Assembly: GCA_014379345.1 (NCBI GenBank)
Contig: JACMLY010000105.1
Location: 1-64,000, forward strand
Length of the DNA: 64,000 nt
Source: Chitinophagaceae bacterium
Lineage (GTDB): Bacteria > Bacteroidota > Bacteroidia > Chitinophagales > Chitinophagaceae
Reading direction: 5' to 3'
The stretch's first letter is position 1, and every line of letters starts with the position of its first letter. Below are positions 44,829-58,047 of the stretch, piece after piece. Made by a program: the position numbers and the translations under genes. The notes beneath the pieces are model-generated. The model was not told the origin of the DNA. It did no database searches and was given only the letters and a program-made list of their open reading frames with translations.

Positions 44829-45050
44829 AATTCTCAATATTCAGTGCCCGATGTTCAATATTCAATTGAAAAGCATGAAAGCCGTTGTTGGTGTTTTCAC
44901 CAACAACAGAAGCGTGGGTAGAGATCACATCATCTCACGATTGCCTTTTGTCCGGCGACACTTCTGTGGACGCTGTTGTTGGTGAAAACACCAACAACGG
45001 CCTCCAAGATATTACCTGAACATTGAGAATTGAATATTGAGAATTGAACA
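44829..45050. repeat. Outer inverted TTGAGAATTGAA-word repeat enclosing the 120-bp element
   Basis: The left side (44829-44867) and the right side (45019-45050) carry opposing AATTCTCAATATTCA-type and TTGAATATTGAGAATTGAA-type words; the outer 15 nt are an exact match. The hairpin-bounded element at 44881-45001 lies in between. Confidence 0.65.
44881..45001. repeat. 120-bp MITE-like element with terminal hairpins, copy A
   Basis: The ends are perfect 27-nt inverted repeats (44881-44907 and 44975-45001). Each end is itself a hairpin: GTTGTTGGTG, four T (left) or four A (right), CACCAACAAC. Inside, AGAAGCGT near the left end can pair with ACACTTCT near the right. The core contains AAGCGTGGGTAGAGATCA, similar to AAGCGGGGTAAAAGGTCA in copy B. 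No open frame. Target-site duplication is not evident. Confidence 0.75.
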
Positions 45051-45076: not shown

Positions 45077-46172
45077 CTATGAACTGACAGTTTCTTTTTC
45101 CATCATCAGGTACGCTTTAATAAACCCATCCAGTTCACCATCCATCACCGGACCAACATTCCCTACTTCATAATCGGTACGATGATCTTTGATCATTTTA
45201 TAAGGATGAAACACGTAGGAACGTATTTGCGATCCCCACTCAATTTTTTTCTTTGAAGAATTGGCCGCATTTTTCACCACTTCTCTTTTCCTCATTTCTT
45301 CTTCGTATAAACGGCTCTTTAGCATCGTCATCGCCTTCTCCCTGTTTTCACCCTGAGTTCTTGCCTGCTGACATTCAACAATAATGCCCGAAGGTTTATG
45401 AGTTAAACGCACGGCCGTTTCCACTTTGTTTACATTCTGCCCACCGGATCCACCACTACGGAAAAATGCCCATTCCACATCAGCAGGACTCACTTCAATT
45501 TCAATTGTATCATCGATCAGTGGGTAAACATATACCGAAGCAAAAGAAGTATGCCGCCGTGCATTGCTATCGAATGGAGAAATCCGAACAAGACGATGAA
45601 CGCCGCTCTCAGCTTTTAAAAACCCGTAAGCAAACGGACCATCAAACTGTAATGTGGCGCTTTTAATTCCTGCACCTTCGCCGTCCTGCAGATCCAATTG
45701 AGTTACAGACCAGCCTTGTTTATCTCCATACATTCGGTACATCCGCATCAGCATTTCGGCCCAATCCTGGCTTTCTGTACCACCGGCTCCGGAGTTGATT
45801 TGTAATATCCCAGGTAATTCGTCTTCAGGCTGATTGAGTGTGCTTTTGAATTCAGCTTCTTCAATAAGCAGCTGTGATTTTTCGTAGGCTTCCTTCACTT
45901 CTTCTTCCCTGGCCTCCCCTTCCTTCCAGAAATCGAATAACACGGCAAAATCCTCCACAGCAGTTTCTACCTGCTCATAGAGTTTTACCCAGTATTCGTT
46001 GAGTTTAATATCCTTCAGGATCTGTGTAGCCCGGGCATTATCGTTCCAAAAACCCTCTGCCAGAGTAAGTTGCCTATCCTGCGCTATTTTATCACGACGG
46101 TTAGCGACGTCAAAGAAACCTCCCCAGAACCACTATACGGTCCCTCATAACTTTCAATTGTTCTTGTGTCAT
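45077..46172 (-). CDS. prfB: Peptide chain release factor 2, programmed +1 frameshift
   Basis: A 364-residue product formed from two frames. Frame 0 runs from the ATG at 46172 for 20 codons to CTT followed by an in-frame TGA (46112-46110); a +1 shift at CTT-TGA-C gives GACGTCGCT... and continues to 45077. RF2 reads UGA and UAA stops. Domain features are the SPF anticodon-like motif in [13 protein letters not shown] and the GGQ catalytic motif in [14 protein letters not shown]. The frameshift autoregulates RF2 level. Frame-0 length (20 codons) is a little shorter than the 25 of E. coli. Confidence 0.97.
46109..46125 (-). promoter_or_regulatory. prfB programmed frameshift site
   Basis: On the minus strand GGGGAGG (a Shine-Dalgarno-like stimulator, 46125-46119) is followed by TTTCTTTGAC, where the ribosome can slip from CTT-TGA to the +1 frame at the UGA stop. 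This is the standard RF2 feedback switch: low RF2 favours the shift. Confidence 0.93.
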
Positions 46173-55562: not shown

Positions 55563-55688
55563 AAAGGTTTAAAGTTTAAGGTTTAAGGTTTAAGGTTGGT
55601 GGTTAAAAAAATATATAGAAATTGAAAAAGTAACAGAAGAGAATGAACAATTACATTATTCACCTTAAACCTTAAACCTTAAACCTTT
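55563..55688. repeat. Inverted TTAAACC heptamer arrays
   Basis: The left arm (55563-55596) is AAAGGTTTAA... words and the right (55662-55688) is the opposite orientation; 27 nt pair exactly if one heptamer on the left is looped out. Copy-number difference between the arms suggests replication slippage. Further CCTTAAACC words continue at about 55813-55852. Loop of about 65 nt. Confidence 0.8.
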
Positions 55689-55692
55689 CACT

Positions 55693-55812
55693 CCGTTGTT
55701 GGTGTTTTCACCAACAACAAGCGGGGTAAAAGGTCAATGTCGCAAAGAAGACAATCGCGATACACATAAAACCTACTGCGCCGCTGTTGTTGGTGAAAAC
55801 ACCAACAACGGC
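55693..55812. repeat. 120-bp MITE-like element with terminal hairpins, copy B
   Basis: Perfect 26-nt inverted ends (55693-55718, 55786-55811), each a GTTGTTGGTG/CACCAACAAC hairpin with a TTTT or AAAA loop, as in copy A. Length differs by one base from copy A. The right ends share CGCTGTTGTTGGTG, and the left inner flank AAGCGGGGTAAAAGGTCA resembles copy A. It is inserted within TTAAACC arrays between two divergent genes. Confidence 0.75.
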
Positions 55813-55855
55813 TTAACCTTAAACCTTTAACCTTTAACCACAAACCTTAAAACCG

Positions 55856-57889: not shown

Positions 57890-58047
57890 GGTTAAAGGTT
57901 TAAGGTTTAAGGTTTAAAGTTTGAAAGATATTAATATTGTAAAAAGTGCCAGGCAATAATTAGTAAGAAAAACGTTAAACCTTAAACCTTAAACCTTAAA
58001 CCTTAAACCTTAACCCTTAAACCTTAAACCTTAAACCTTTAACCTTA
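57890..58047. repeat. Inverted TTAAACC heptamer arrays between convergent genes
   Basis: The left array (57890-57922, GGTTTAA words) faces a longer right array (57974-58047) with about ten CCTTAAA heptamers. Unequal arms point to slippage expansion. It lies after the yceI stop and before the stop of the facing unknown gene. Confidence 0.8.

Follow-up and report, generated by a model that had tools for sequence, protein, structure and literature searches.

REPINs were defined in Pseudomonas fluorescens by Bertels and Rainey in 2011 (PMC3116915), and singlets were read there as decayed doublets. As described in the passages of that paper drawn on here, REPINs are inverted doublets with a spacer, about 100 nt in size, which give a long hairpin as single-stranded DNA (ssDNA); they also occur in tandem clusters of near-identical units, and the RAYT has REPs of its own. 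The elements described in the present study share these properties. Unlike the P. fluorescens REPINs, they have no GTAG-type tag at the hairpin foot, they keep the stem rather than the tag constant, and their copies are far fewer.

The protein side of such systems was classified by Quentin et al. in 2018 (PMC6006769). In the sections of that work cited here, subclass 2.6 TnpAREP of Bacteroidetes is characterized by the motifs NH[LIV]H and YIH[QN]NP, and by a long distance between the HUH motif and the tyrosine (median 82, against 58-67 in most subclasses). Its genes are flanked by 'atypical secondary structures' that lack GT[AG]G and are copied elsewhere in the genome. The system reported here resembles subclass 2.6 in the motifs of its gene, its occurrence in Bacteroidota, the missing GT[AG]G, and the copies elsewhere in the genome. 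It is set apart by description, as the structures of subclass 2.6 are called weaker while many stems here are perfect, and doublets with a conserved core, which are found here, are absent from the description of the subclass in those sections. Other repeats have been grouped by Di Nocera et al. in 2013 (PMC3733652, partial text) into GTAG, CGTC, and TIR families; TIRtrons (TIRYT) are also described there. The present system resembles TIRtrons in that a RAYT-like gene is bordered by self-complementary inverted repeats belonging to a repeat family; the GGGGWSAS consensus given in that paper differs from the motif found here. As for enzymology, the available part of PMC8266576 reports that the TnpAREP of Escherichia coli recognizes single-strand REP, cuts at a CT beside the hairpin, and joins strands; GTAG is crucial for this enzyme, whereas those from a different group are tolerant of an altered GTAG.

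Here we describe a repeat family of a Chitinophagaceae genome whose element has the architecture of a REPIN and agrees with subclass 2.6 in its context but lacks the canonical tag. No earlier description of this repeat was found in the literature, with figures, supplements, and closed journals outside the scope of the search.

Anatomy and folding of the two copies

The window, that is, the whole stretch of DNA analyzed, comprises 64,000 nt and contains two copies of the element, A and B. Copy A (44881-45001, plus strand) begins with a GCC tag (44881-44883), followed by the left REP hairpin with a 10-bp stem and a TTTT loop (44884-44907), a 67-nt core on the plus strand (44908-44974) with the box CGATTGCCTTTTGTCCGG that is partly common to diverged copies, the right REP hairpin with an AAAA loop (44975-44998), and a GGC tag (44999-45001). 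Copy B belongs to subfamily II and lies in the opposite orientation (55692-55812, minus strand); its parts are a TCC tag (55692-55694), a REP hairpin with a TTTT loop (55695-55718), a 67-nt core on the minus strand (55719-55785), a REP hairpin with an AAAA loop (55786-55809), and a GGC tag (55810-55812). Copies A and B score 82.0 and 100.8 bits, respectively, with the sequence profile R1, whose training set includes both.

The shared layout of two elements with a core of about 67 nt and inverted ends, which had been proposed in the first-pass annotation, was thus borne out: each copy is 121 nt long and consists of two facing 24-nt hairpins around a 67-nt core. All four hairpins have a 10-bp stem without mismatch and a 4-nt loop, and since the loop is TTTT in each left hairpin and AAAA in each right one, the ends form genuine inverted repeats, beyond mere self-palindromy. 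The annotation placed copy B correctly at 55693-55812, except that its start is 55692 and its orientation is opposite to that of copy A. It also took the cores to be only partly alike. In the alignment the hairpins are identical and the cores are indeed diverged, but the likeness becomes extensive in matching orientation: copy A and the reverse complement of copy B share 75% identity across 124 columns, the full length of the element.

The motif of the hairpin arm, GTTGTTGGTG, occurs 15 times in the window with at most one mismatch, against 3.63 occurrences expected, a count that no shuffle reached; the exact arms of copies A and B make up 8 of the 15. Folded as ssDNA, either strand of both copies gives a single long hairpin, with folding energies between -40.9 and -44.3 kcal/mol and z-scores between -9.0 and -12.5, and no shuffled sequence was equally stable. 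The long single hairpin is also predicted for the copies at C36:158k (z -6.2) and C107:7827 (z -7.5) on other contigs (labeled C) of the genome, while the copy at C107:106230 favors two separate hairpins (z -4.1).

Copy family in the genome

The search for copies covered the whole genome of 5.14 Mb in 173 contigs. The exact palindrome occurs 20 times and its control not at all. When up to three mismatches were allowed in the 16 fixed positions, 76 matches were obtained compared with 41 for the reversed control, so that many of the loosest matches are due to chance. What had been seen as two diverged copies in the window is therefore part of a larger family: manual counting of profile matches gives about 17 units, A and B among them, that are doublets or nearly so and fall into two subfamilies. 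By another manual count, 14 of the 20 exact palindromes lie within doublets, one of them with a decayed partner and two in a direct tandem on contig C136. Fourteen units were oriented manually, aligned, and made into profile R1; judged by loop asymmetry, the arms are inverted in 13 of them, C136 being the direct tandem repeat. Profile R1 found 75 matches in the genome at E <= 0.01, a number in which one element is often counted twice because both strands were included. The strongest of these matches are the training copies themselves, and a near-full further copy from outside the training set was found at C139:41254-41370 (E 1.2e-9).

Between copies at separate sites, identity ranges from 84% to 94% across matches 62-121 nt long; copy A and C36:158k share 84%, C36:158k and C36:215k share 88%, and C36:158k and C84 share 94%. 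BLAST comparison among 16 copies suggests two groups, one with copy A, C36:158k, C36:215k, C84, C107:106k, and C139, the other with copy B, C107:7.8k, C163, C83, and C118, and cross-matches of 71-77% link the two. A core box with a consensus of about GCGATTGCCTTTT is present in whole or in part in most of the 14 aligned copies and absent from C22, C47, and C136. Only two copies with unmatched cores had been considered as an outcome unfavorable to the idea of a mobile element; further copies with matching cores were found instead. Covariation in the core, another check suggested at that stage, did not appear: RNAalifold predicted 19 pairs for the 14 copies, all confined to the two end hairpins and none in the core, with a two-sided change in 1 of the 19. 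A secondary structure of the core is thus not supported by RNAalifold of these copies.

Tandem amplification occurs locally in the genome. Contigs C22, C84, C107, C136, and C139 begin or end in hairpin arrays, and such arrays of REP units are a possible reason why some draft contigs end there. The element DNA had no match in phage records, and an extended search pattern had none in viral contigs. A lone REP hairpin was also observed at C99:10423 (about position 224 of locus L038), centrally placed within a long inverted repeat that is of another type (TCGCAAAGACGCGAAGGCGCAAAG).

Tags at the hairpin foot

The 5' GT[AG]G tetranucleotide of canonical GTAG REPs is absent from the hairpin foot here. 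The outer tag is mostly GCC/GGC, and the inner side reads CGCT/AGCG. Within the core, 4 of the 14 units, A and B among them, carry a GT[AG]G at a distance of 6-11 nt from the left hairpin; we read it as not conserved, though a remnant is conceivable. The CGTC type of REP does not apply either, with CGTC present on the oriented strand of 2 of the 14 aligned units and at differing places. The same tetranucleotide also occurs near hairpins at C111 and at the RAYT gene, and, in copy A, adjacent to a single hairpin when the opposite strand is read.

The RAYT gene of the genome and its homologues

The first-pass annotation stated that no transposase gene is near the two copies. This is true locally, but the likely mobilizer lies elsewhere in the genome, on contig C36. 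A PF01797 search of the genome found two Y1 genes. The first is a RAYT, whose Y1 match (C36:203882-204124) falls inside a 202-codon frame located between hairpins at C36:203619 and C36:204314; when the RAYT protein was used as the query, this gene was the sole match in the genome at E <= 1e-10. The other Y1 gene, at C134:54938-55282, was weighed as a candidate mobilizer and set aside, as it is IS200-like (NF033573, 65.2 bits) and a scripted search found no such hairpins in its locus. The motif of this IS200-like gene (L172, 1396-1857), YIENQEFHHKK, resembles the subclass 1.2 motif given in the part of PMC6006769 used here.

The best NCBIfam model for the local RAYT is NF047646, 'REP-associated tyrosine transposase', with 72.7 bits against a cut-off of 80. 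The same model was the best in each of the six RAYT proteins scanned, yet with 68.2-76.1 bits it stayed below the curated 80 in all of them. The local motifs NHLH (HUH) and YIHNNP (Y) fit the subclass 2.6 pattern; among five homologues, NH[LIV]H is present in four and YIH[QN]NP in three. From the second H to the Y there are 74 residues in all six RAYTs, a figure to be set beside the published distances with care because the measuring convention of that paper may differ. An SS motif in the C-terminal tail, a further mark of subclass 2.6, is found in all five homologues and is absent from the local frame (L032 376-969, equal to C36:203675-204268, minus strand), which departs from the family sequence just before the SS tail; an interruption of the gene or an assembly error at this point seems likely.

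The RAYT shares with IS200/IS605 elements (IS608, ISDra2) the fold of a Y1 HUH transposase and the subterminal hairpins. Unlike them, it matches the IS200/IS605 family model weakly (21.3 bits, cut-off 55), and one copy of the gene was found in this genome. The fold was assessed with an AlphaFold model of an intact Pontibacter homologue (L056; mean pLDDT 63.4, pTM 0.65, with an unreliable tail). In a Foldseek search with this model, the first 30 matches were all transposases. Among them were those of ISDra2, IS608, and Sulfolobus tokodaii, and the REP-bound RAYT 4er8 had the highest query TM-score (0.53). At the sequence level, one RAYT used as the query had no match among solved structures. 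RAYT matches in plasmids came from five records, every one of them below 60% identity.

Association of hairpins and RAYT genes across genomes

A RAYT relative (E <= 1e-10) is present in 172 of 294 genomes of the family. The neighborhood of RAYT was examined in the best 30 RAYT loci, with this genome's own included. In 25 of these 30 loci, a TTGGTG-type hairpin lies at most 260 nt from RAYT under a rule that allows longer loops and stem variants and whose motif list was widened after the flanks had been inspected; the remaining five had no such hairpin. The hairpin is upstream in 20 loci, downstream in 24, and on both sides in 19. Its density near RAYT is 10 times that elsewhere in the same loci (58 per 15.6 kb compared with 25 per 67.7 kb). 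Under a strict rule, TTGGT..ACCAA with 4-12 nt between, 15 of the best 30 loci have the hairpin, 14 of them on both sides, and 15 do not.

The association was also approached from the repeat. The related-genome search advised in the first-pass annotation proved productive: the exact palindrome was found in 14 of the 294 genomes, and at least 119 named contig stretches contain the palindrome. These stretches were picked by the palindrome alone, and 10 of the 119 contain a RAYT homologue (E <= 1e-3). In nine, RAYT lies 71-176 nt from the palindrome, with a frame of at least 173 codons in five and only short frames in four; the tenth (L146) has a fragment at the stretch edge, more than 7 kb from the palindrome. 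Among the family genomes, RAYT is present in 12 of the 14 with the exact palindrome, the RAYT search giving no match in the other two, and in 160 of the 280 lacking it (P 0.028 in a one-sided Fisher test). The exact palindrome is hence missing from most family genomes that carry RAYT, and stem and loop variants are common.

A third rule was applied to 39 loci, made up of the 30 above and the nine drawn from named records. Of these loci, 30 have a hairpin upstream and 31 have one downstream, 28 having both. Among the upstream hairpins, 18 of 30 bear GCC as the outer tag; among the downstream ones, 21 of 31 bear GGC. Stem position 4 is G-C in all 61 hairpins, while position 1 varies (G-C 33, T-A 11, A-T 7, C-G 6, other 4); the pairing in this set is partly by construction because the search demanded the two G's of positions 7-8 as well as no fewer than 9 of 10 pairs. 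The stem of the repeat is also found in named contigs of Chitinophagaceae, Mucilaginibacter, Rufibacter, Pontibacter, and Ignavibacteria. Profile R1 was run over 100 of 132 other loci (13 from the family and 87 of the 119 named, with 32 named loci left out) and gave 63 matches at E <= 1e-6, many of which are one element on both strands; similar doublets therefore exist there.

Host context and the empty site

Both copies sit within other intergenic heptad repeats. Around copy A there is an ATTGANN-type repeat with a left arm at 44829-44857 and a right arm at 45017-45045 (or to 45051); these arms are a host repeat, probably outside the REPIN proper. The ATTGANN heptad has 24 matches in the genome (control 2), one of which adjoins the related copy C36:158k. 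Copy B is bordered on one side by inverted TTTAANG heptad arrays (55563-55690), also a host repeat, and on the other side by a heptad array (55813-55851); a further (TTTAANG)n array lies at 57891-58040. Intergenic (TTTAANG)n arrays, often facing their reverse complement, have 229 matches in the genome (111 + 118; control 0). The subfamily II copies inspected by eye (B, two on C107, C163, C83, and C118) are all in or beside TTTAANG arrays.

Copy A is located in a gap of 312 bp between prfB and an aldehyde dehydrogenase gene. Within prfB, 46100-46170 on the minus strand carries the purine-rich GGGGAGG, then CTTTGAC with an in-frame TGA, which looks like the usual arrangement for a programmed frameshift. 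Two genomes of the same genus keep this gene order, and there the gap measures 199 bp in G211, with no hairpin of the kind, and 20 bp in G081; in a third (G158) the order of prfB and aldehyde dehydrogenase is absent at the match. Neither the exact palindrome nor a RAYT match was found in any of the three. Because the heptad repeats are part of the insert in the window, the REPIN is not isolated in this comparison, and its border and any target duplication are unreadable from the gap. No empty site could be read for copy B: by eye, G158 and G211 have another gene next to the regulator. The earlier proposal of a mobile element under selection on its ends is supported by the dispersed copies, the conserved ends of the kind that flank RAYT, and the site that lacks the element in two relatives.

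Weighing of explanations

In our judgment, the elements are very probably REPIN-like inverted REP doublets, that is, non-autonomous miniature elements moved by a single-strand RAYT. Their size of 121 nt and their 27-nt inverted ends also have the look of a MITE, which would be mobilized by a classical DDE transposase through double-stranded cutting at terminal inverted repeats, with a target duplication. We consider such an origin highly improbable, because the ends form hairpins like those beside RAYT genes and because inspection of 12 flank pairs by eye, to which no statistics were applied, revealed none of the target duplications that the first-pass annotation had advised looking for. A structured RNA, transcription terminator, or attenuator that recurs for a host function seems just as improbable. 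It would account for the strong folding and for the placement of both window copies between long ORFs; set against it are the divergence of the A and B cores while the hairpins stay identical, and the lack of copy A in two same-genus genomes with the same gene order. An Rfam scan of the window also found no RNA family at its gathering threshold, which speaks against the structured RNA offered earlier as an alternative. Secondary use of such repeats as terminators could nevertheless occur.

The tandem arrays that occur locally, in which the hairpins are spaced rather regularly, recall host protein-binding or recombination sites of the integron attC or CRISPR kind. This explanation is the least probable of those weighed, given that the units of the arrays repeat the core too (by eye) and so contain no unique spacers, and that the association is with RAYT genes.

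Proposed mechanism and implications

Under the preferred reading of REPIN-like doublets, the unit would comprise two inverted 24-nt hairpins, each built as GCC followed by GTTGTTGGTG, the loop, and CACCAACAAC, around a family-specific 67-nt core. The putative mobilizer is the single relative of RAYT that the genome was found to encode; it is a tyrosine (Y1) transposase of the HUH single-strand kind, and its gene lies between two hairpins of the same type. When the element becomes single-stranded, for example on the lagging-strand template, its ends would fold as hairpins, or the whole would fold as one. RAYT would then bind the hairpins and cut beside the foot, and the excised or copied strand would be joined elsewhere without target duplication. 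Binding, cutting, and transposition of the doublets by RAYT are inferred here from the known systems. As the foot lacks GTAG and the stem is constant, recognition may lean on the stem, with GCC in the guide position. The local RAYT frame is broken before the conserved C-terminal part, and the REPIN family is therefore probably decaying or idle in this genome, where it may no longer be mobile.

A wider hypothesis can be put forward tentatively, and we regard it as rather more doubtful than probable: RAYTs of this Bacteroidota type might read their DNA the other way round from the known enzymes, the TTGGTG/CACCAA stem serving as a conserved, sequence-specific recognition site throughout the phylum and beyond it (Ignavibacteria), GCC at the hairpin foot replacing the GTAG guide, and the doublet with its conserved core being the moving unit that prefers or accompanies intergenic heptad repeats. 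If GCC does replace the GTAG guide, an altered cleavage dinucleotide is predicted. As one stem is present in all the named groups listed above, the cleavage rules would be testable with a single set of oligonucleotides. The present analysis supplies the sequence, the polarity, and the doublet architecture of repeats that accompany a little described subclass of RAYT.
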